This document shows, in pieces, positions 1 to 44,177 of a DNA stretch of 64,000 nt (the first letter of the stretch is position 1; every line of letters starts with the position of its first letter). The notes beneath the pieces were generated by a model. The model was not told the origin of the DNA, did no database searches, and saw only the letters and a program-made list of their open reading frames with translations. The stretch is from Microcoleus sp. bin38.metabat.b11b12b14.051. GTDB lineage: Bacteria > Cyanobacteriota > Cyanobacteriia > Cyanobacteriales > Microcoleaceae. Made by a program: the position numbers and the translations under genes. The stretch covers positions 1 to 64,000 of the forward strand of contig NZ_JAAFKD010000014.1 of NCBI RefSeq assembly GCF_013299165.1. The letters run 5' to 3'.

Positions 1-130
1 GCCACGATTACACCCACATGAGCAAGTCGCGTGACTAGAATATCGGGAGCCGAATGCGATGAAAGTCGCACGTTCGGATCTAATTGGGAGGGGCGGGGCT
101 TAATAGCCTCCCTCGACCTAACTCAACTAT
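1..130 (+). ncRNA. 3' end of a group II intron (domains V and VI)
   Basis: Positions 47-81 read as a group II intron domain V: GAGCCG with the AGC catalytic triad, a GAAA tetraloop inside CGAT/GTCG, the two-base bulge region CACG, and the closing TTCGGATCT. One position of the basal helix is a G.A mismatch where G.U is usual. Positions 84-121 form a domain VI-like hairpin (GGGAGG with CCTCCC), followed by an A-containing tail that ends near 121-130. The rest of the intron, including any maturase gene, lies outside the window. The exact 3' splice junction is not certain. The next recognisable structure starts at about 131, directly after the intron. Confidence 0.75.
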
Positions 131-222
131 CTAACGGCTACCTATCTCTAGGTGGTCTGGTCAGTATCAGCTTGAATGAGTAATCATCCAAGCTCAGTGG
201 CTAAAGCCCTGAGTTACTGACT
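131..222 (+). ncRNA. Structured RNA, HEARO/omegaRNA-like (partial copy)
   Basis: This segment shares an ordered set of helices with 5526-5740. An outer stem GGTCAGTA (159-166) pairs with TTACTGAC (214-221). Inside it are AGCTTG (169-174) with CAAGCT (189-194), then CAG-GGC-TAAA-GCC-CTG (195-211). A small hairpin CCT/AGG precedes the outer stem. The GGC:GCC helix here is CCC:GGG in the other copy, which is compensatory change. The layout and the TAAA loop recall HEARO RNA, the guide RNA class of IscB, from memory of the family. No IscB-like gene is nearby, and the 3' hairpins of the second copy are not evident here, so it may be truncated by the adjacent intron or by decay. Confidence 0.45.
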
Positions 223-384
223 CTGCTTATTTATTGAGTTTTCCGTCTGACTAATAACTAATGATATCGTTTCGGGTCGATCGCCGTAAAAAAAAATGGT
301 TTGTAGTGCGGAATGCGAGTCCGCAGCCCGAGCTCCCGACGATCGCGCGTGGGGTTAATCTGGACACGATATGACTTCGATTCC
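223..384. other. Gene-free stretch with half of a palindromic repeat
   Basis: No gene is supported here. Positions 298-325 hold one arm of the GTTTGTAGTGCGGA palindromic repeat family that recurs through the window. The rest may be the decayed 3' half of the upstream structured RNA. Confidence 0.4.
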
Positions 385-1077
385 TTAAGGTTCTTGATTC
401 TGCTGCAAATGTCGCCACACCTCTCGATCGCACACGTGCCAAAAATACAAAGCCAAATTCAAAAGAGCTAATAATTTAGTACCATCTTCTAACATTGCGT
501 GTACTCCTAAACTTCGGGAGTTTAAAATATCCTCCAATCGCGAGATAGCGAATAATAAAAATGCTGCGACTAACGGCAAGTAAGGAGTGGTTTTGATGTA
601 GCGCCAAAACTTAAATCCGTAAAGCAAAACAGCACTACCATAACACAAATAAATTAATTTAGTAGAAATTCCTAACCGAGAAAGAATCAAAGTCATCCGA
701 AACCTGTCATCCAAGAAAAAGACTGCCAGCAGTAAAGCGCTAAAAAATAAGAATATTGCCGATCGACTGCGCGGCTCTTTTTGGCGCAGCACTCCGAAGG
801 TAAATGCACAAATGGCGACAGGAATGCACCAGAGAACTTCGGAAACTCCGGTGAGAATGCCTTCGTAAGGGAACCAGGAATTAAAAGGATCGCTAAACAA
901 ACGTTCAACTCCGTCTCCCTGGTTTTTGAGTTTTGCATAAAGGCTCAGCCCGCCTAAAAGCAGGAGAGTCAGCGTGTTGCAAACAGCTAAAAAAGGTACA
1001 GTAAAAAAGTGTTTTTGGAGCAAATCTAAAAAACTCGCAAACTTGGGAAGTTTATCAAATAAAGGCAGATGCTTCAT
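385..1077 (-). CDS. Multi-pass membrane protein of unknown function
   Basis: A 230-residue protein with about six to seven hydrophobic segments spread over its whole length, separated by short polar loops such as the KNQGDG and RQKEPRS stretches. I do not recognise a family. It probably sits in the plasma or thylakoid membrane. The ATG at 1077 is preferred over an in-frame TTG at 1092; neither has a strong Shine-Dalgarno sequence. It is flanked downstream (0.3 kb) by mobile RNA remnants and upstream by a palindromic repeat and a kinase gene on the same strand, with no sign of an operon. Function cannot be inferred. Confidence 0.7.
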   Translation of the reverse strand: MKHLPLFDKLPKFASFLDLLQKHFFTVPFLAVCNTLTLLLLGGLSLYAKLKNQGDGVERLFSDPFNSWFPYEGILTGVSEVLWCIPVAICAFTFGVLRQKEPRSRSAIFLFFSALLLAVFFLDDRFRMTLILSRLGISTKLIYLCYGSAVLLYGFKFWRYIKTTPYLPLVAAFLLFAISRLEDILNSRSLGVHAMLEDGTKLLALLNLALYFWHVCDREVWRHLQQNQEP

Positions 1078-1150
1078 AAAAGTTGTTTCCAAGCAATAGA
1101 CTTTGTTACTTATTCATATCATGTTCGGTAGGTTAGCATAATAATCATAG

Positions 1151-1208
1151 TTTGTAGTGCGGACTTGAGTCCGTTTTCAGGTTGCGGACTCAAGTCCGCA
1201 CTACAAAC
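1151..1208. repeat. Palindromic intergenic repeat (GTAGTGCGGACT family)
   Basis: An almost perfect inverted repeat: the arm TTTGTAGTGCGGACT is repeated in reverse complement, with a short loop. It lies between two genes on the minus strand and could act as a transcript-end hairpin. Members of the same family occur near 11138, 19718, 22318-22848, 40079 and 61270-61588. Confidence 0.85.
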
Positions 1209-1222
1209 GTTACTTATTGCGG

Positions 1223-2605
1223 TCAATCTACGGGACATGATCTCACTGGTAGAAAAACCACAAAGGTAGTGCCGCGATCGCTAGGATATAAATAAGCTGC
1301 CGCAGGTGGCAGCCATTCCGGATTTACTGGGGAAAATACTTGGATTTCTCCTTGCATTTGCCGGACTAAATCGCGGGCGATCGCCAAACCCAATCCTGTA
1401 CCGGGAATTTCTGTCTGCGCTTTTTCTCCCCGGTAGTGGCGCTCAAATAAATGTTCTAAATCTTGAGGGGGAATTCCCGAGCCAGTATCGCTGACTGCTA
1501 CTGCTACCGCAGGCGACGGGCGCCCTGCTTTCTCAGAGCTTGCTGTAATATAAATTTGACCGCCTGGAGGAGTATATTTCAAAGCATTGTCAATTAAATT
1601 GCTCAAAACTTCGCGCAAAGCTCGATCGTTCGCCCAGACTGGCGGCAAATCCGGCGGTATGTCGGCTACTAATGACAGGTGGTTTTCTGATGCGATCGCC
1701 TCGGCGGAAACTAACAGCGGTTTTAAGACTAATTCCACAAAACATGATTTGTCCAAATTCGCCACCGGTGACAGCGACAGAGGAGAATCTCTGGTTAATT
1801 CCCCGTGGGAGGTGGCTATTTCTGAAGTCGCAGATGGGAATCTGAGATTTGCTTCGCCGGTGTCTACGGTGCGATCGAACTGACTGAGCAATTCAGAGAG
1901 CCGATCGCTCTCTCGGACAATACTAAAAGCCACATTGCGGTTTTTGTCTTCGGGTACCAGCCGTCGCGCTAACAGTTTGCCAAAAGTTCGCAGCGCTGTC
2001 AGCGGACTTTTAAATTGGTGCAGCAAATTGTGCATCGTGTCGTAAACCTGAGCTTGGATTTGCCTCGCCGATCCCAATTCCTGCTGCATCCACTGCGATC
2101 GCTGGTCTAAAATGCAAGCCAGGGCCAAGGTGCGAGCAATTTGTTGCATCTGAGCCTCCTCGCGATCGTTCCAAGCCCTGTCTTGCCTGCCGCATACCAG
2201 GAGACCCATTACAGCTCCCTCGTGTATCAGAGGCGTCACAATTTGCCTCCGCTGCTGCCAAACGTTCTCCGGGCCCTGGCAGCGATCGTCCCGGTTTTCA
2301 AAACCCGGGAGTGGCTCGGGCGCGATCGTCCCCACTGTGGATTCTTCGACAGTCACAGCCGGCTCCGCCAGCCGCGGCACCTGTTTGACTGTCGAGCTTG
2401 CAGCAGATTCCAGCCTCAACTCCTGATTTTCGGCGTCGGTGACTGAGGTGTCTGGATAAACTGCGATCGGCACCAACTTTGCTTCGCTCCCGGATACCAG
2501 CTCTTGTGTCAGGTATACGGCGCTGAATGTCGCTCCCAAGCTAACGGCGATCGCCACTTGCGATCGGCAAAGCTTGACAAATTCTGAACTGGCTGGCATT
2601 AACAT
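1223..2605 (-). CDS. GAF-domain sensor histidine kinase, Hik2/CSK-like
   Basis: A 460-residue soluble sensor kinase. The N-terminal part (about 1-190) resembles a GAF domain. The dimerisation/phosphoacceptor helix carries the H-box around HQFKSPLTALRTFGKLL, followed by an HATPase_c domain with N, G1 (DTGSGIP) and G2 (GTGLGLA) boxes. The H-box sequence and overall layout resemble cyanobacterial Hik2, the relative of chloroplast sensor kinase that responds to redox state and salt; that assignment is from memory. A GTG at 2614 and an ATG at 2599 are alternative starts, and none has a clear ribosome site. The long linker after the first 50 residues is low in conservation. There is no response regulator next to it, so the partner must be encoded elsewhere. 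Confidence 0.75.
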   Translation of the reverse strand: MLMPASSEFVKLCRSQVAIAVSLGATFSAVYLTQELVSGSEAKLVPIAVYPDTSVTDAENQELRLESAASSTVKQVPRLAEPAVTVEESTVGTIAPEPLPGFENRDDRCQGPENVWQQRRQIVTPLIHEGAVMGLLVCGRQDRAWNDREEAQMQQIARTLALACILDQRSQWMQQELGSARQIQAQVYDTMHNLLHQFKSPLTALRTFGKLLARRLVPEDKNRNVAFSIVRESDRLSELLSQFDRTVDTGEANLRFPSATSEIATSHGELTRDSPLSLSPVANLDKSCFVELVLKPLLVSAEAIASENHLSLVADIPPDLPPVWANDRALREVLSNLIDNALKYTPPGGQIYITASSEKAGRPSPAVAVAVSDTGSGIPPQDLEHLFERHYRGEKAQTEIPGTGLGLAIARDLVRQMQGEIQVFSPVNPEWLPPAAAYLYPSDRGTTFVVFLPVRSCPVD

Positions 2606-2960
2606 GAGCGCCACATTAAGATCTCTAACGGAATTTTAAGTAAATTACAATTGATCTGTCGCCGATTACAGGTTAGAGACTTTTTGATTTTTGGTGTCTT
2701 CCTGTGGTTGATACTGGCCGGAGTTCAATGCTTGGGGGCTTCAACTAGCAATTTTTGCCCCAAACTCGCTGTTATTGGCTCCCACAGCTCCCCTCTTGGG
2801 GGGCTGTTGCCCGAAACTTTTGCGCTACGATACCACAACCGCTGTACTTTTGTCGATCGGGGCCAATGTTAAGATTATGTCGATATATTAAAAACAGTTG
2901 AACTTTTGAGCTAGAAGGGATATACTGGCCTCGGATTTGGTAGCTATGATTACCTAAAAA
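2606..2960. other. Intergenic region, no supported gene
   Basis: A 73-codon open frame exists here on the plus strand but has no recognisable features. The stretch contains AT-rich sequence near 2870-2960 that could hold promoters, but I cannot point to a defined site. Confidence 0.4.
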
Positions 2961-3177
2961 TTGGATCTAAAGCCCCGTCCGATCGGGACGGCTTTAATGA
3001 TTGAATCATATATTGTTGATTCGCGAGATGTCAAAATCCGGTCTCAACTCTATCATCCAAAAAAATCTTAGAGGTTGGGGCATCAACCTGAGGGCTAGGC
3101 AATATCAGACAAGCTGTGCTTGCGTTTGCTGTTTGAATCCAGAATCCCCATGTCTTTAAGGCTCGGGAGTATGTCAA
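2961..3177. mobile_element. Non-autonomous IS200/IS605-like element (PATE/MITE)
   Basis: Both ends match the ends of the TnpB element at 37.4-38.9 kb. The left end holds a hairpin, CCCGTCC-gatc-GGGACGG, preceded by TCTAAAGCC. The right end (about 3141-3176) reads AGAATCCCCATG, a TTTAAGG loop, then CGGGAGTATGTCAA. The TnpB element has TCTAAAACC plus CCCGTCC/GGACGG on the left, and AGAATCCCCACG, a TTTAGG loop and GGTGTATGTCAA on the right. There is no coding capacity between the ends. I infer an internally deleted relative that is moved in trans by a Y1 transposase. Confidence 0.7.
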
Positions 3178-3220
3178 AACCTGTCTGCTCATACTGTCTA
3201 CTCATACTGTCTGCTCACAG

Positions 3221-3229
3221 AGGAGGTAA
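3221..3229 (+). promoter_or_regulatory. Strong Shine-Dalgarno supporting a TTG start
   Basis: AGAGGAGGT is the best ribosome-binding site seen in this part of the window. It fixes the TTG at 3235 as the start of the DUF3155 gene. Confidence 0.75.
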
Positions 3230-3234
3230 AGAAA

Positions 3235-3558
3235 TTGGCCAGGAGACGCAAACGCAAGAGTCGCCGCCGACAAGAAGGACGCAGAATTTTAGAGTGTGTG
3301 CCTCAATATAGCATCGAGAGCGGCGAAGATAAACCCGTAACAGCGGCTCGCAAGTTCATCCATGCTGAAGGCATTGCTCCCCCAGCTTTGCTGTTAGTAA
3401 AGCGTAACGAGCATACCACCGATAGATACTTCTGGGCTGAAAAAGGTTTATTCGGAGCCCAATACGTAGAAGAGAACCATTTCTTGTTTCCCAGCTTAAA
3501 GGTGATGCTGGAAGCCACATCAGAAAAAATTCCTGTGGTGTCCGCCAGTCGCGCATAA
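3235..3558 (+). CDS. DUF3155 family conserved cyanobacterial protein
   Basis: A 107-residue protein. It begins MARRRKRKSRRRQEGRR, a strongly basic start, followed by VPQYSIESGEDKPVTAARKFI, which I associate with DUF3155, a family known only from cyanobacteria. Its role is unknown. The basic N-terminus suggests nucleic-acid or ribosome contact, but that is inference. The start is a TTG at 3235; it is supported by an excellent Shine-Dalgarno (AGAGGAGGT) about 8 bases upstream and by family conservation of the MARRRKRKSRRR start. The gene lies just downstream of the small IS605-like element, which may have altered its upstream region. Confidence 0.85.
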   Translation: MARRRKRKSRRRQEGRRILECVPQYSIESGEDKPVTAARKFIHAEGIAPPALLLVKRNEHTTDRYFWAEKGLFGAQYVEENHFLFPSLKVMLEATSEKIPVVSASRA

Positions 3559-3987
3559 ACTGCAATGTTTAGTTAAAAACATTGACAGCAATGTTTGATA
3601 ACTCTTTTAACACTACTCGCGAGAGTTTTCATTGTCTCAAGAGTGCCAACTGAAATTTACGCGAAAAGTCCTGATTTAATTAGGGCATAAGGAGCCATCG
3701 CAACAGCAAGGATCGCCATAGCGGGCGCTCGGCACAATTGGCACTCTCAGGATAATGTTTTTTTTGACCCCGCCCAAAAACCAATGCCAGCCCCCGACTG
3801 GAGTCGCGAGCCACCCGAAATTTTAGACGCAAATTTAAGCTCCCAGATTCATCTGTAGCATAAATCTCAAATCTTCAACGCGATTTTCGCGTGAATGTTT
3901 TGTCGATCGAAGCCTCAGCGATCGGTTGGTCTGCTCGAAGCCTCAGTCTGGCATCTAGCATATCAAAAAAGGTTCCGCACTCCTCTT
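3559..3987. other. Intergenic region with an inverted AGAGTGCCAA motif
   Basis: No gene is supported. AGAGTGCCAA at about 3640-3649 is matched by its reverse complement TTGGCACTCT at about 3738-3747. A further copy of TTGGCACTCTC occurs near 35739. This is not a CIRCE operator, which has a TTAGCACTC core with a 9-base spacer, and no chaperone gene is near. Confidence 0.4.
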
Positions 3988-4524
3988 TTAATCTTCTAGA
4001 AGTTTTAAATCTAAAGCTTCTTGCATAGCTGCGAGTTCGTCGCGGTGAGCTCGCACAGTAACCAAGCTCTTAGTTTTGGTTCCAGACTCAGCGACGGATT
4101 CGAGTTTCAAGCAAACTTGCTCGGATCGTCCGGCTCGTTTCCAATAAAACACTCCGGCCAGCGGGGACAGCAGTACCAAAGCTAGGAAAATTTGACCTTG
4201 CTGCGGCACGAGCATTCCCAAAACAAGTCCCAAGCACAGAGTGCCACCTGCACTCAGCAAAGTTAGAAAAATAGCTAAAAACAAACTCGGCCGTACAAAA
4301 CCCTCAAAGGTGACTTTATAGTTGGGGGCATCGACGGCTGCAACTCGGTAAGCCCTAGAAGCAAAATACTCTTGTAGCTGGGTCAACAGTGACTCTTGGG
4401 CGCTCTCTGAAGCAAGCTTGACTTGTTCGATGCGATCTTTGACTGAGGCCTTGATGAAGAAAAACAAGCCAACAGCCAACAGCAGCGTCAACACAAAGGT
4501 TGAAGGAAGAACAGCAGTATCCAT
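3988..4524 (-). CDS. CCB1-like cofactor assembly protein (cytochrome b6 haem biogenesis)
   Basis: A 178-residue membrane protein. It starts MDTAVLPSTFVLTLLLAVGL, one transmembrane helix, then a soluble stretch with KDRIEQ and the conserved pattern YRVAAVDAPNYKVTFEGFVRPS, followed by two adjacent transmembrane helices (about 95-140) and a C-terminal soluble tail. I recognise this as the family annotated as cofactor assembly of complex C subunit B, CCB1 type (formerly a DUF). In chloroplasts it helps attach haem c_i to cytochrome b6. The function here is by homology only. It is a monocistronic-looking gene on the minus strand. Confidence 0.7.
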   Translation of the reverse strand: MDTAVLPSTFVLTLLLAVGLFFFIKASVKDRIEQVKLASESAQESLLTQLQEYFASRAYRVAAVDAPNYKVTFEGFVRPSLFLAIFLTLLSAGGTLCLGLVLGMLVPQQGQIFLALVLLSPLAGVFYWKRAGRSEQVCLKLESVAESGTKTKSLVTVRAHRDELAAMQEALDLKLLED

Positions 4525-4847
4525 CGGTAGAAGTTTGTGTAAGTGAAATTGTCTACTCCTACTTTACATAACTTTACGGATGAAAGCGATCGAGGACTTA
4601 CACAGGCACTTTTTTCACAAAATTCGCAGAAAGCTTTGTAGCAAGATGTTTTTCTCCTCATCACCCAATTCCCATATCTCCCCATCATCTCTAATTTTCA
4701 AGTGACCGTGCGTAAGTCCTCTTGCTGTGCGATCGCTGCTGTCATCGCTGCTAGTGGCGAGTCAGCAAAGCGAAGACAAGAAAGGCAATTCGCTTTGCTA
4801 GTAGCGCCAGCATCTGCAAGGTTTTAGGCATCGGATTCCAACGCCAG
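4525..4847. other. Intergenic region with a long hairpin
   Basis: No gene is supported. An 11-bp perfect inverted repeat, AGCAAAGCGAA (about 4764) with TTCGCTTTGCT (to about 4799), lies roughly midway between the PadR gene and the CCB1-like gene. It could be a transcript terminator for the PadR gene on the minus strand, though no clear U-tract follows. Confidence 0.4.
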
Positions 4848-5240
4848 CTAACCCGTGTGACCGCTTTCTAAGGCCCGGGGCCGACGCCCAGAGCCGCCGT
4901 TGCCCTGACCGATATAGTCGTGCCACAGACGAGCCAGGTCTTGAGCTTGGTGGCGCCACTCCGGCAGGATTTGATACATCCGGCGGGGGCGGCCGCGTCC
5001 TTCTACTTTTTTCCAGTAACCGGTGATTACGGCTTCATCTTCGAGGAATTTCAGAGCGCTGTAGAGGACGGTATCAGAAAGTCGGTAGATGGGGAATTCC
5101 CGCTCTAGTTGTCCGATGAGTTCTGTACCGTAGGAATCTCCGCGCAATAACACCGAGAGAATGTAGCACACTGCCAGTTCCTTGTTTAGATAAACAGGAG
5201 GGGGGTCTTGAAAGAATTGATAGATGTGTTCAAATTTCAT
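4848..5240 (-). CDS. PadR family transcriptional regulator
   Basis: A 130-residue winged-helix regulator. The segment YLNKELAVCYILSVLLRGD through DSYGTELIGQLEREFP and DTVLYSALKFLEDE matches the PadR N-terminal wHTH. The following KKVEGRGRPRRMYQ is the beta-wing with the usual G-R-P-R-x-x-Y. The short C-terminus ends in a Gly/Arg-rich tail. The chosen start gives MKFEHIYQFFQDPPPVYLNKE, which is how I remember the cyanobacterial orthologues beginning. The reading frame stays open upstream to 5360 but that part is repeat-like intergenic DNA. The ribosome site is weak. The target is unknown. Confidence 0.85.
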   Translation of the reverse strand: MKFEHIYQFFQDPPPVYLNKELAVCYILSVLLRGDSYGTELIGQLEREFPIYRLSDTVLYSALKFLEDEAVITGYWKKVEGRGRPRRMYQILPEWRHQAQDLARLWHDYIGQGNGGSGRRPRALESGHTG

Positions 5241-5525
5241 AAAAAGAAATACGGTAAGTGGGAAACTCGGCGACTTTAGTCCCGAGAGGGAAACGACCCG
5301 GGGGACTTTAGTCCCCGTGAACCCCCTTGCGGGGTTGGAAGGGTATGGTTGCCCATCCAATGGAGATATTGTGGTCTCCTTTCTCCCTTGCGGGGTAATG
5401 TTGGCCTCGACCTGGTTATAAAGGCTTGTTAGACCTGCAACACTGTTTCAGTGACTTTAAAACTGTTTAATTGCAGATGACAGAGCGAAAAACTGGCGTC
5501 GCATTCTTCGGTGTCGTGACCTAAA
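5241..5525. other. Intergenic region with GGGACTTTAGTCCC palindromes
   Basis: Two short palindromes centred on ACTTTAGTCCC occur at about 5270-5283 and 5301-5314, with CCCCCTTGCGGGG next to the second. A second CCCTTGCGGGG occurs near 5387. They resemble the window's other ACTTNAGTCC repeats. No gene is seen. Confidence 0.5.
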
Positions 5526-5740
5526 TAACGGCTCCTCGCGATCGAGGGGTCTGGTTAGTACAGCTTGCTCGATTTCTCTTACAAGCTCAGTCCCTAAAGG
5601 GCTGAGTTACTGACCTGTCTTGTCCGCTAGAAACTCTCGTGATACCGTCAGGTTAACGGGAGAGGAAAGCGGGGCGGGGTGTGCCGCTTCCTTAGGTTTA
5701 ACTGAGAATGGGGGAAACAGAGGTGCAGTATTTCCCCGGT
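5526..5740 (+). ncRNA. Structured RNA, HEARO/omegaRNA-like (fuller copy)
   Basis: The hairpin CTCCTC/GAGGGG (5532-5549) is followed by an outer stem GGTTAGTA (5553-5560) with TTACTGAC (5607-5614). The outer stem encloses AGCTTG/CAAGCT (5562-5587) and CAG-CCC-TAAA-GGG-CTG (5588-5604). Three more hairpins follow: CTCTCGT/ACGGGAGAG (5634-5664), AAGCGG/CCGCTT (5667-5689) and GGGGGAAA/TTTCCCC (5710-5737). The dense ordered hairpins, and helix covariation with 131-222, indicate selection on RNA structure. The pattern is consistent with HEARO, the omegaRNA of IscB, but I could not run a covariance model and there is no IscB gene. Another RNA family is possible. Confidence 0.5.
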
Positions 5741-7489: not shown

Positions 7490-8135
7490 CAGAAACTGGT
7501 TTGTTAAATTTGCTAGAAAAAAAGGAACTATTACCTATTGATTTTTCTGGACTTTTGGGGTATATTTTAGATAATGGAAGTGGTAACTTAAATTTTAATT
7601 TTTCCAATATTTCCATTATTAAATTATACTTCCAAAAACTCTCAGAGTCAAGCAACTGGTTTGCTAAATTCGCTAGAAAAAAAGGAACTATTACCTATTG
7701 ATTTTTCTGGACTTTTGGGGTATATTTTAGATAATGGAAGTGGTAACTTAAATTTTAATTTCTCCAATATTTCCATTATCAAATTATACTTCCAAAAACA
7801 CTCGAAGTCAAGCAACTGGTTTGCTAAATTCGCTAGAAAAAAAGGAACTATTACCTATTGATTTTTCTGGACTTTTGGGGTATATTTTAGATAATGGAAG
7901 TGGTAACTTAAATTTTAATTTCTCCAATATTTCCATTATCAAATTATACTTCCAAAAACACTCGAAGTCAAGCAACTGGTTTGCTAAATTCGCTAGAAAA
8001 AAAGGAACTATTACCTATTGATTTTTCTGGACTTTTGGGGTATATTTTAGATAATGGAAGTGGTAACTTAAATTTTAATTTCTCCAATATTTCCATTATC
8101 AAATTATACTTCCAAAAACACTCGAAGTCAAGCAG
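7490..8135. repeat. Four tandem copies of a 160-bp repeat (VNTR)
   Basis: Direct repeats start at about 7494, 7654, 7814 and 7974, each exactly 160 bp apart. The first copy differs from the others at several positions, whereas copies two to four are nearly identical, so the array grew recently. Each unit contains an inner inverted repeat, ATAATGGAA with TTCCATTAT, enclosing an AT-rich palindrome-like core. A 66-codon open frame appears in every unit, but since 160 is not a multiple of three the frame shifts each time, so I take the array as non-coding. Confidence 0.95.
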
Positions 8136-40185: not shown

Positions 40186-43100
40186 TTATTTAATTGGAAG
40201 TTCGATGATAAATTCAGTGCCTTTACCAGGTTCCGAGACACACTGCAATTTGCCTTTGTGTTTTTCAACCACAATTTGATGCGAAATTGATAAACCCAAA
40301 CCTGTGCCTTTACCTACGGGCTTTGTGGTAAAAAATGGGTCGAATAAACGCACGATATTCTCTTGGGGGATTCCCGGGCCGTTGTCTCTGATGCGAATGC
40401 AAATGCTCTTACCATTAATCATTTCAGTTTTAATGGTGATTTCTGGAGAAGTTAGATTCTGGGTATTTTTGCCTTGGCTGCTACTTTCTTCTAAGGCGTC
40501 GATCGCATTGGCTAATACATTCATGAACACTTGGTTTAACTGTCCGGGATGACATGGTATTTGGGGAAGTTCTCCGTATTCTTTAATCACTTCTATGCCC
40601 TGCCAGTTTGCCTTGGCTTTTAGCCTGCTGTTCAACATTAACAAGGTACTTTCTAAACCTTCGTGAATGTTGGCGGGCTTGAATTTCGCTTCGTCCGCCC
40701 GGGAGAAATTACGCAGAGTTTGAATGATTTCTACAATTCGATCGCATCCTGTGTGCATCGAGTTAAGCAATTTGGGCAAATCTTCGGCGAGAAATTCTAA
40801 ATCTATCTCCTCGGCTTGTTTCTTAATTTTTGCTGGGGGATTTGGACATTCTTCTCGATACATTTCTACGATGTCTAATAAATCGAGAACGTAGCCGCGG
40901 ACGTGGCAGAGGTTGCCGGCGACAAACCCAACGGGGTTGTTAATTTCGTGGGCAATTCCTGCTAGCACTTGTCCGAGGGAGGACATTTTTTCGGTTTGGA
41001 CTAACTGCATTTGAGTTTGTTGCAATTCGCGCAAAGCTGTTTGCAATTCTCTTGATTTTTGCCGATCGCGCGCAGCAGCAGTCGCCCGTTCTTCTTCAAC
41101 TCCGATCGCCCCAGCAATAATTCCGATCAGCTTGCAGTCGGCTTCTGTGGGTGCGATCGACTCGGTGTAAATGACGCACAGCGCACCCACGTAATTGTCA
41201 CCCAGCCGCACTGCTTGTCCGAGATAGCTTTTGAGTTGGTAGCGGATGACAGCGGGATCGATTTGGCTGTAGATGGTGTTCTGCAAGTCAGGAATTGCCA
41301 CAGCCCGATCGCTTGCTTGATTGCAGACATCGGTACAAATGTGACCCTCAGCGCGATCGACCTCCGGGTAGTCTGGGGGCGTTTGCCAAGTCGCGATCGC
41401 GCGCAGCAGCCCGTCACCGACGTGGCTGTAGATGGCGCTGCTACCGCCCAAAAGCTCTCCGGCTAAGGCTGTCAGGCGTTGGATGTTGTCGGTGGCGTCG
41501 GTGGTGAAGCCCAAAAAGCACTCGTTGATTTTGCTGAGGCGGTACTCTGCTTGTCTGCGCGCCGTCATGTCGCGCGAGTTGAGCACAATTCCGTTCACAG
41601 CGGGGTCTGCTAGCAAGTTAATGCCGACTCCTTCGAGAAAACACCAAGAACCGTCAGCACGCCGGAAGCGACCTTCTAGGGCGATCGGATCGCCGGGATT
41701 TGCGAGCAGTTTTTCGCCGTCGGAGATCACCGAGGGAATGTCGTCAGGGTGGATGAAATCGAGGGCATTTTGACCGATGAGTTCCTCTGGTTCGTAGCTC
41801 AAAACTGTTTCTACAGAAGGGCTTTCGTAAACAATCAGGCCATTTTCATCAAGAATGGTAATGATGTCGGAACTGTTGAGAATCAGCGATCGCCACTTAG
41901 CCTCATTTTGCAATAAAGCTGATTCGGCAAGTTTGCGATCGGTAATATCCTCCACCATGTCCAAAATAAACTGCGGTGTGGCGTGACTGTTGTGGATGAC
42001 AGAGGCGCTGAGGCGTCCCCACCTGATGCTGCCGTCTGGGCGGAGGTAGCGCTTCTCGATTTGGTAAGCTTGGCGTTCGCCAAATGCCAACTGTTGGCGC
42101 AAATGGCGATCGGACTGTGTGTCTTCTGGGTGCGCCCAGTTGTCGAGTCCAACGCCGCGCAGTTGGGATTCCGATCGCCCCAGCATAGCTTGAAATGCCG
42201 GATTAGTGGCGATCGCCGCGCCTTCGAGGGTAGCCACCGCCATGCCGATCGCAGCGCGTTCAAAAATTGCCCGAAACCGCTGTTCGCTGTCCCGCAAAGC
42301 TGCCTCGGCTTCTACTTCTTGGGTGGTGTCCCTGCCCGCCACTGCCATGCCTTTGCGGGAACCGTCGGGGTTAAACAGGGGCACTTTCCGCACTTCAAAC
42401 CAATTGCTGCCGCCTGTAGGTAAGGCGACAACTTGGCGGCTGGAGGTAAGAGTGCCTGCTTCCCAGGTAGTTTCGTTGGTTGCTTGCCAATTTAGCAGGA
42501 TTTCTCTGACTCTGGGAGTTGCTGCGGCTGCGAGTTCGGCAGTAGTTTTGCCTTGGTAGGCTGCGGTTTCCCAGCCCAAAAGTTGCAGGGCGCAGTCGTT
42601 AGCAATCAGCCAGCGCCCTTCGCTGTCTGTGAGGTTGAGGGCGTCGGGTACGGCGTCGATCGCAGTTTTCAGCCAGTATTCTCGATCGCGCTCGGCTGCT
42701 TCGGCGTGCTTGCGATCGGCGATTTCGGCAACTGTTCCTTCGTAGTAGAGAAGTTCGCCGTTTTCGCCACAGACTTGACGCACGTTTTCCGAGATCCAGG
42801 TAGTGCTGCCGTCACAGCGGAATACGCAGGACTCAAACTCTTTCAGGGAACCAGTTTTGATGATTTCTGCAATGAAGTCAGCGCGGCGAGTGCGATCGAC
42901 ATAAAGGTTTTTTGCCGAACATTTTGCGATCATTTCTGACGGGGAATCGTAGCCGTAGATGCGGGCTAGTGCCGGGTTGGCGCTGAGGTAGCGCCCATCA
43001 GCGGTGGTTTGAAATATGCCTTCGGTGGCGTTTTCAAAGATGCTGCGGTAGTTTGCTTCGGCTTGTTTGAGGGCTTCTTCTGCTTGGAAGCGATCGGTGA

Positions 43101-43530
43101 TATCAGATTGGACGCCGATGAAGTGGGTGACAATCCCGCTGCTATCGCGCACTGGCGAGATGGTAAGTTCGTTCCAGAAGGGGGTGCCGTCTTTGCGGTA
43201 GTTTTTGAGAACTACTTTGCAGTCGTGTTGTTCTTGAAGGGCTACGCGGATTTGAGCTAGGGCTGCGCGATCAGTATCCGGGCCTTGCAAAAAGCGGCAG
43301 TTGTGCCCGATAATTTCGCTGCGATCGTAGCCTGTAATTTGCTCGAAGGCTGGGTTGCAGTAAACTATTGGCTTGTCCGGGAGTGTAGCGTCCGCGATCG
43401 CGATGCCGTTGCTGGTAGCTGCGAGGGCGCGATCGTACAGCCTCCATACTTCTTCTATTAAGTTCGGTGCATTGGGGCCACTACGATTCGGCGATAGGTT
43501 GTCAAAAGGAATACTTATATCGATCTGCAT
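40186..43530 (-). CDS. LOV-domain multi-PAS histidine kinase (blue-light sensor)
   Basis: A 1114-residue soluble kinase. The first PAS domain (about 30-155) is a LOV domain: GHNCRFLQGPDTD carries the adduct-forming Cys78, and KNYRKDGTPFWNEL with HFIGVQSDITDR completes the flavin pocket. Four more PAS domains follow (about 160-280, 285-410, 415-540, 545-670), then a GAF-like domain (about 675-830). The kinase core has GIAHEINNPVGF (His861) and an HATPase_c with DNGPGIP and GKGTGLGLSI. FMN-based blue-light sensing is expected from the intact NCRFLQ; the other PAS ligands are unknown. It lies 5.7 kb from the phytochrome operon, on the opposite strand. No response regulator is adjacent. Confidence 0.92.
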   Translation of the reverse strand: MQIDISIPFDNLSPNRSGPNAPNLIEEVWRLYDRALAATSNGIAIADATLPDKPIVYCNPAFEQITGYDRSEIIGHNCRFLQGPDTDRAALAQIRVALQEQHDCKVVLKNYRKDGTPFWNELTISPVRDSSGIVTHFIGVQSDITDRFQAEEALKQAEANYRSIFENATEGIFQTTADGRYLSANPALARIYGYDSPSEMIAKCSAKNLYVDRTRRADFIAEIIKTGSLKEFESCVFRCDGSTTWISENVRQVCGENGELLYYEGTVAEIADRKHAEAAERDREYWLKTAIDAVPDALNLTDSEGRWLIANDCALQLLGWETAAYQGKTTAELAAAATPRVREILLNWQATNETTWEAGTLTSSRQVVALPTGGSNWFEVRKVPLFNPDGSRKGMAVAGRDTTQEVEAEAALRDSEQRFRAIFERAAIGMAVATLEGAAIATNPAFQAMLGRSESQLRGVGLDNWAHPEDTQSDRHLRQQLAFGERQAYQIEKRYLRPDGSIRWGRLSASVIHNSHATPQFILDMVEDITDRKLAESALLQNEAKWRSLILNSSDIITILDENGLIVYESPSVETVLSYEPEELIGQNALDFIHPDDIPSVISDGEKLLANPGDPIALEGRFRRADGSWCFLEGVGINLLADPAVNGIVLNSRDMTARRQAEYRLSKINECFLGFTTDATDNIQRLTALAGELLGGSSAIYSHVGDGLLRAIATWQTPPDYPEVDRAEGHICTDVCNQASDRAVAIPDLQNTIYSQIDPAVIRYQLKSYLGQAVRLGDNYVGALCVIYTESIAPTEADCKLIGIIAGAIGVEEERATAAARDRQKSRELQTALRELQQTQMQLVQTEKMSSLGQVLAGIAHEINNPVGFVAGNLCHVRGYVLDLLDIVEMYREECPNPPAKIKKQAEEIDLEFLAEDLPKLLNSMHTGCDRIVEIIQTLRNFSRADEAKFKPANIHEGLESTLLMLNSRLKAKANWQGIEVIKEYGELPQIPCHPGQLNQVFMNVLANAIDALEESSSQGKNTQNLTSPEITIKTEMINGKSICIRIRDNGPGIPQENIVRLFDPFFTTKPVGKGTGLGLSISHQIVVEKHKGKLQCVSEPGKGTEFIIELPIK

Positions 43531-44177
43531 GAGTTTTTATAGATTGAGTTTATTATCGATCTCGACTGGCAGCATACCCTGTTAGTTTAACAAAATTGCC
43601 CTGTTTTCCGAAGGTCGAATTCTTTCAGTGGACAGTTTACAGTTGACCGTTAACAGCTACCTCTACCTGGAGACCAGAGGATTACTAATCAATAGTCTGA
43701 TTTTAAGTTCTCCCTAAAAGGGAGAGGCGTTCAACCTATTCTTTCTGGTAACAAGGCGATCGTTCAGGATTCCGGCATTAATTTATACCAAATTTAAATC
43801 TCGTCTCCCTCATTTTTCTTTTTTTATGCCTTGTGCCTGGTACTTTTTACCTTCAAAATACTGTTATCTTTTAACTTATAATAGTTGTTGCCTCGCTCTC
43901 TCTATCTCTGGTATAGTTTATACCGTTTGAAATGTTACACTTGAGATTTGAGATTGGCGATTGCGGGTGACTGATGCAAGTTATGGTTAAGAGCTTATTT
44001 ATAGTTCTACTCTTTTTTGAAACTGCTATTAATTGGCAGCGTTTAGTCGGCTGATTACTTCCAGCAGTCAAATTTTACATCTTTGCCATAAATAGAGCCT
44101 GCGACTCCCATCAAATATTTTTATTAAAAAAAATCAGTAATATCATGAAAACTCTGCCGAAAAAAACCTAGTACCGA
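43531..44177. other. Intergenic region, no supported gene
   Basis: About 650 bp. STRR-like GGACAGTTTACAGTTGACC occurs near 43631. A minus frame at 43871-44071 lacks any recognisable feature. AT-rich sequence upstream of the LOV kinase (43531-43620) may hold its promoter. Confidence 0.4.

Follow-up and report, generated by a model that had tools for sequence, protein, structure and literature searches.

Gene-less omegaRNA elements of a Microcoleus genome are often found in host-gene leaders, frequently at the start codon

HEARO RNAs, or omegaRNAs, are a known family and serve as guide RNAs of IscB, the ancestor of Cas9. The guide of IscB is about 16 nt long, and the work of Weinberg in 2009 reportedly placed HEARO insertions before ATGA/GTGA. 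HEARO RNAs have been located in the 5′ region of IscB-type genes and function as guide RNAs (PMC9755519), NTGA/ATGA is a measured target-adjacent motif (TAM) of the related IsrB (PMC9581776), and for TnpB guided cutting of empty sites has been shown to bring about retention and drive (PMC11870625). Since the DNA encoding the IscB guide lies beyond the element, and a nuclease gene is lacking beside many copies, it has to be asked who transcribes the guide and who performs the cutting. We analysed a stretch of 64,000 nucleotides of the cyanobacterium Microcoleus sp. bin38.metabat.b11b12b14.051 (bases 1-64000 of contig 14 in a 7.07-Mb genome, hereafter the window), in which an initial annotation had described two HEARO-like structures, here named copy 1 and copy 2. 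Copy 2 lies within a short mobile element in front of a padR-like gene. As far as can be judged from the sequence, orphan elements of this kind, i.e. those without an adjacent IscB gene, often sit in host-gene leaders in sense orientation, frequently exactly at the start codon.

In regard to the identity of the two structures, comparison with the Rfam covariance model RF02033 (gathering cut-off 83 bits) and their shared helices identify both as HEARO RNAs of the minus strand. Copy 2 matches the model over its full length (5614..5395, model positions 1-211, 131.7 bits, E 4.5e-27), while copy 1 (221..101) scores 32.8 bits, under the cut-off, because little beyond its 5′ helices remains. The HEARO reading of the initial annotation was right in substance, by score for copy 2 and not for copy 1, and two related structures sharing ordered helices are indeed present at both places, with a compensatory change (GGC/GCC in copy 1, CCC/GGG in copy 2) around the same four-base loop. 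Other parts of it had to be corrected: the strand is the opposite of the one proposed, copy 1 is only the 5′ part of a HEARO and ends at a group II intron, the continuation of the copy 2 element to 5241 had been missed, and the three further hairpins assigned to copy 2, up to 5737, are host DNA (5615-5737) that aligns in relatives lacking the element. The earlier observation is in this sense partly confirmed and the earlier interpretation partly supported. Covariation was assessed on 21 chosen copies from the own genome and relatives (20 distinct rows), with 7 of 28 initially aligned copies left out for poor alignment or long loops. The three 5′ helices are paired in 98.2% of 380 cells, 7 of 19 pairs are altered on both sides, and the covariation score is 0.397, whereas slid versions give 0.002-0.069. 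Shuffles are not surpassed in two of the five covariation measures (both-side changes 7 vs 6.3, further pair types 17 vs 18.7).

The element around copy 2 could be delimited by comparison with relatives. With a 1.6-kb query, many of them match in two abutting pieces that leave out 5241-5614, and the site is uninterrupted in all 23 congener loci, with ATGA kept in every one; in six loci of other genera, no alignment across the insertion site was obtained. The flanks abut in relatives, meaning that the insertion is exact and without target duplication, and sister copies share both end points of the window element. Its left end coincides with HEARO position 1, so that element and omegaRNA start with the same base and the host DNA preceding it becomes the guide. 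The predicted guide differs from the 23 congener empty sites by 0-5 mismatches (0 in two of them, 1 in eight). Empty sites and flanking motif alike place the insertion directly upstream of ATGA, as in the ATGA/GTGA rule. There is no IscB within 5241-5614 and the next gene is padR (PF03551, 42.1 bits, cut-off 27), so this is not a complete IscB element. The initial annotation had overlooked that copy 2 belongs to a mobile element sitting at a start codon.

To describe how such elements are placed, we call an element docked when an open reading frame (ORF) of at least 80 aa opens at its flanking motif. The orphan sample was drawn from the 33 full HEAROs of the own genome without adjacent IscB and from 67 loci of relatives (27 of the loci detailed in the relatives search and the first 40 further rows listed in it), and became 82 orphans once 18 of the 67 with an IscB directly downstream were set aside. 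Right-end motifs that exclude the flank located the ends of 65 of them, and the 17 unread ones, some at contig ends, were dropped. The flanking motif is ATGA in 61 cases, GTGA in 2, ACGA in 1 and ATGG in 1. Among the 64 orphans with ATG or GTG at the flank, 45 are docked (own 24/31, relatives 21/33), whereas of the 777 ATGA sites that these flanks contain, 151 (19%) open such an ORF (binomial p 1.5e-18, treating sites as independent). In the other two frames, the count is 6 of 128, and according to crude gene calls only 18 of the window's 139 non-disrupting ATGA sites coincide with a start codon or lie close to one. Among the window copy and its ten sisters, the 11 that resemble each other most, 10 are docked. 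By crude calls, the next gene is in sense for 41 of the 45 docked elements, antisense for 2 and absent for 1, with 1 lying inside a called gene, and of 20 undocked Microcoleus elements 13 are followed by a sense gene and 2 by none.

The count of 45 is a low one, because PsaI (38 aa), PetL (33 aa) and a HicB-like protein (69 aa) fall under 80 aa. When 29 ORFs from the own genome were searched against family libraries (three of less than 25 aa were left out), 22 matched known families (10/10, 9/10 and 3/9 in the three batches). PsaI covers its family model from 1 to 38 of 38; L18, PetL, GatB, YbaB and a Clp subunit score over the cut-offs with matches from near the first residue, and the partial proteins NirB, LysRS and trigger factor likewise match from near the first residue, under the cut-off. 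One element is inserted in the gene order rpsH-rplF-rplR-rpsE, starting 2 nt downstream of rplF and preceding rplR; this rplR is the sole L18 gene found in the genome, and gatB is likewise single. No mention of start-codon docking was met in a literature search that did not cover the founding papers.

Elements linked to IscB and those of a second lineage are placed in a comparable manner. Among IscB-linked elements of named genomes, ends were read in 44 of 79 loci (35 were not readable by the motifs), 43 of them with ATGA, and in 30 of 42 whose flank is long enough an ORF of at least 80 aa follows, one gene being common to four Nostoc loci. Docking as a trait of orphans only was rejected on these grounds. 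A second lineage of the ATGA type (G024, 17 orphans given) has 12 of 15 readable orphans docked. In a third lineage, of the GTGA type (G027), 13 of 25 given orphans were read and 12 have GTGA; here there is no start-codon excess, as 4 of 12 open an ORF of at least 80 aa compared with 32 of 98 flank sites (33%). Nevertheless, the next gene is in sense in all 14 cases that have one, among 17 loci. The placement common to the lineages would then be the sense leader, with ATGA types arriving at the start codon as the motif mostly occurs there in leaders.

Furthermore, the genome holds candidates for the missing nuclease. It contains 35 HEAROs over the cut-off and two weak ones, and 33 of the 35 have no IscB directly downstream. 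C11 and C16 each encode an intact 423-aa IscB protein having RRXRR (RuvC) and HNH domains right after a HEARO (NF040563, 465.9 and 470.2 bits, respectively, cut-off 175). The absence of IscB stated in the initial annotation holds for the element of copy 2 and not for the genome, and its suggestion that an IscB encoded elsewhere could serve the RNA is right in substance, these two genes, each with its own HEARO, being the candidates. In addition, C26 carries a broken IscB-like gene, and on C29 a 316-aa IsrB-like RRXRR protein adjoins a weak HEARO of 31 bits (L118, G000 C29:49000-53000); this protein has no HNH match and scores 97.1 bits with NF040563, under the cut-off. Over the HEARO, the identity of ten sister copies with the window copy is 93.7-99.1%. 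In the relatives search, HEARO is present in 20 of 23 genomes, and many of the best-matching named IscB loci come from Microcoleus and other Microcoleaceae. As a separate observation, several own copies (e.g. L006, L022, L024, L025, L030, L113, L116, L117) show abrupt short differences in hairpins, for example CTCG-like where most copies have GAG/GAA, and some of these break helices; perhaps they stem from assembly or from local replacement.

We propose, with a probability of about 0.6, that copy 2 represents a non-autonomous IscB (IS200/IS605-like) element reduced to transposon ends and an omegaRNA, and that IscB in trans guards the copies moved by a transposase. According to this proposal, a Y1 transposase would act in trans to move the element, and the promoter of a host gene would transcribe the guide together with the omegaRNA. 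Since the guide is located at the 5′ end of the omegaRNA and derives from host DNA, an outside promoter is needed, and a leader provides one. IscB in trans could then cut element-free alleles, such as excision scars, sister chromosomes and incoming DNA, followed by repair of the cut empty alleles from the element-bearing copy. Retention or drive by guided cutting would here operate by analogy with TnpB. A correct guide would be made only by insertions downstream of a host promoter, which would explain docking in leaders, and as ATGA within a leader is mainly the start codon, elements of the ATGA type would end up there. The right end of the element would then have to serve as the translation leader of the gene.

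With regard to this last step, 22 of 25 IscB-linked elements read by hand, which are not a systematic sample, have a Shine-Dalgarno-like motif close to their end, and in windows further in the figures are 5, 1 and 0 of the 25. In G024 the motif is present at 10 of 15 ends, and in G027 at 5 of 13. As a general reason for the tolerance of docked elements, the motif was not upheld for the Microcoleus orphans.

Cyanobacteria are often polyploid. A wider proposal, which we hold tentatively and with less confidence than the one above, is that cyanobacterial IscB-family elements could be leader parasites. They would persist only in host-gene leaders since their guide needs host transcription, the ATGA types at start codons, even those of single-copy ribosomal-protein genes, with the outer end as translation leader, and an IscB located elsewhere would drive gene-less copies through many-copy chromosomes. 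Leader docking would be one testable answer to both questions raised at the outset, with the host promoter making the guide and IscB working in trans. Natural insertions, some of them before single-copy genes such as rplR and gatB, would thereby become ready test sites for RNA-guided retention and, equally, for translation starts that a mobile element provides.

Several observations weigh against the main proposal. The genome has 10 Y1 (HUH) transposase matches, none of them on C11, C16, C26, C29 or contig 14, and no match in the genome could be linked to the element as its mover. The IscB-linked scaffolds are only 76.3 and 76.9% identical to the window omegaRNA, and copy 2 itself has one helix-1 mismatch (C-A, base 5556). 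Its near-identical copies may be too young to reveal selection on function. By the 80-aa rule, 19 of 64 orphans are undocked, the independence assumed by the binomial test has to be considered as well, and among the 20 undocked Microcoleus elements the next gene is antisense in 4, with 1 within an antisense ORF call. Of 17 sites in the GTGA lineage, 6 lie within a called ORF, 4 in sense and 2 in antisense. Finally, just 3 of 64 Microcoleus orphan ends have the Shine-Dalgarno-like motif, being T-rich instead.

Part of these points is shared with the alternative that survives best, namely that the elements are passive debris resembling miniature inverted-repeat transposable elements (MITEs), spread by a transposase only, with a dead omegaRNA and a bias due to transposase target choice (ATGA in open DNA) or to selection against other sites. 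An element without any gene, the helix-1 mismatch and the hairpin strands in which several copies differ would all be expected under such a scenario, and the docking of 10 of the 11 youngest copies fits insertion bias as well as retention. On the other hand, orphan copies keep their helices with compensatory changes, the IscB genes are intact, and the GTGA lineage, too, precedes genes in sense, even though GTGA rarely serves as a start codon, and we regard passive spread as rather unlikely. It could also be imagined that the omegaRNA region was domesticated as a leader regulating padR or other docked genes, either by riboregulation or with the help of a silent relative of IscB, for instance the C29 protein that lacks HNH, given that the element stands between the promoter side and the start codon of padR. 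For padR this is unlikely, with the insertion absent from 23 of 23 congeners and no sign of a long-kept function, and as the docked genes are of unrelated kinds, domestication in general seems highly improbable. There is even less reason to attribute the start-codon excess to ORF counting or related sites: ORF calls are crude, four Nostoc loci share a gene and 17 of 82 orphans without readable end were dropped, yet the other frames (6/128), the ATGA sites of the flanks (19%) and the GTGA lineage (4/12 vs 33%) give no such excess, and family matches begin near residue 1 (PsaI 1-38 of 38). A plus-strand RNA family with three extra hairpins, conceivable as short helices can fold on either strand, is rejected with hardly any doubt, because the HEARO model matches the minus strand, 19 cells in the tally of the 21-copy alignment are minus-strand G-U pairs that would read A-C on the plus strand, and 5615-5737 is of host origin, being found also in relatives without the element.

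Copy 1 is a defunct fragment that breaks off at a group II intron. The RF00029 match to domains V-VI (DV-DVI) of this intron extends over 45-122 (54.3 bits, cut-off 40), and its border beside copy 1 is either 122 or 126. The remainder of copy 1 was searched for without success, the contig starting inside the intron. Bases 1-126 are identical at two other places of the genome (G000 C6:1-126 and C58:13648-13773), and those copies of the intron which were examined for the missing part are also located at contig ends. The intron end is also identical at contig ends in G019 and G023, and 7 of 7 distinct copies examined are followed by TCAA. A degraded group II intron in sense, apparently one inside another with two DVI-like tails, was observed in the omegaRNA of the broken IscB (C26 ~41400-43870; L119, L122), and the 5′ part of this omegaRNA was not found within 5 kb upstream. 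At L127 (C6:180109) and L128 (C14:148272), group II intron ends run directly, in sense, into tnpB-type genes with Pfam OrfB_IS605 and Cas12f1-like TNB domains. A composite element of group II intron and omegaRNA was considered and rejected, given the missing 5′ part on C26 and the two introns also in tnpB-type genes, and the intron ends at copy 1, on C26 and at the tnpB-type genes are treated as landings in mobile DNA.

Table 1. Coordinates of the two HEARO copies, the copy 2 element and adjoining features in the window
Feature	Position	Strand	Basis or remark
Group II intron 3′ end, antisense to copy 1	1..126	+	RF00029; window and contig begin inside the intron
Copy 1, HEARO 5′ part, remainder absent	127..221	-	Intron border uncertain by a few bases; helices intact
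padR-like gene, 130 aa, directly behind the element	4848..5240	-	Pfam PadR PF03551
Flanking motif ATGA (target/TAM), padR start codon plus A	5237..5240	-	Kept in 23/23 empty sites
Mobile element with omegaRNA copy 2, no gene for IscB or another protein domain	5241..5614	-	374 bp; absent in relatives
Right end of the element: hairpins, conserved end motif, T-tract	5241..5394	-	Common to sister copies
OmegaRNA/HEARO copy 2	5395..5614	-	RF02033 full length
Predicted guide, 16 nt of host DNA before the omegaRNA	5615..5630	-	Anatomy; empty-site match
Host sequence with the three hairpins named earlier	5615..5737		Aligned in relatives without the element

Elsewhere in the window, a tandem array of four 160-bp units (7494-8134, 98% matches) has each unit open as a 66-aa frame, and palindromic repeat-like sequences are found at 1153-1205 and ~260-330, the second of which recurs widely in relatives.

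In comparison with known systems, the window element agrees with HEARO/omegaRNA (RF02033) in its full-length match, conserved helices, guide position in front and ATGA flank, and differs in having no IscB and in occupying host leaders, in many cases directly at the start codon. IsrB finds a counterpart in the C29 protein, with RRXRR and without HNH beside a weak HEARO; that protein is encoded elsewhere in the genome, and no test connects it with the window element. IStrons consist of an intron joined to an IS605-like element, and resemble copy 1 and the C26 locus in that an intron adjoins part of an RNA-guided transposon. However, group II introns have landed here in omegaRNAs, antisense in the window or in sense and degraded on C26, with no composite. 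To the IscB/ISC elements (NF040563), the window element is related by the RNA, the ends and the flanking motif it has in common with the IscB-linked elements of the genome, which are also docked at start codons, while being without a gene, it would need IscB and a transposase in trans. With IS200/IS605 MITE-like elements and the TnpB model of retention and gene drive, it shares the lack of target duplication, a fixed flanking motif, hairpin ends and a guide made from the flank; the differences are that IscB stands in place of TnpB, that the nuclease is outside the element, and that retention would follow by analogy with the TnpB case.

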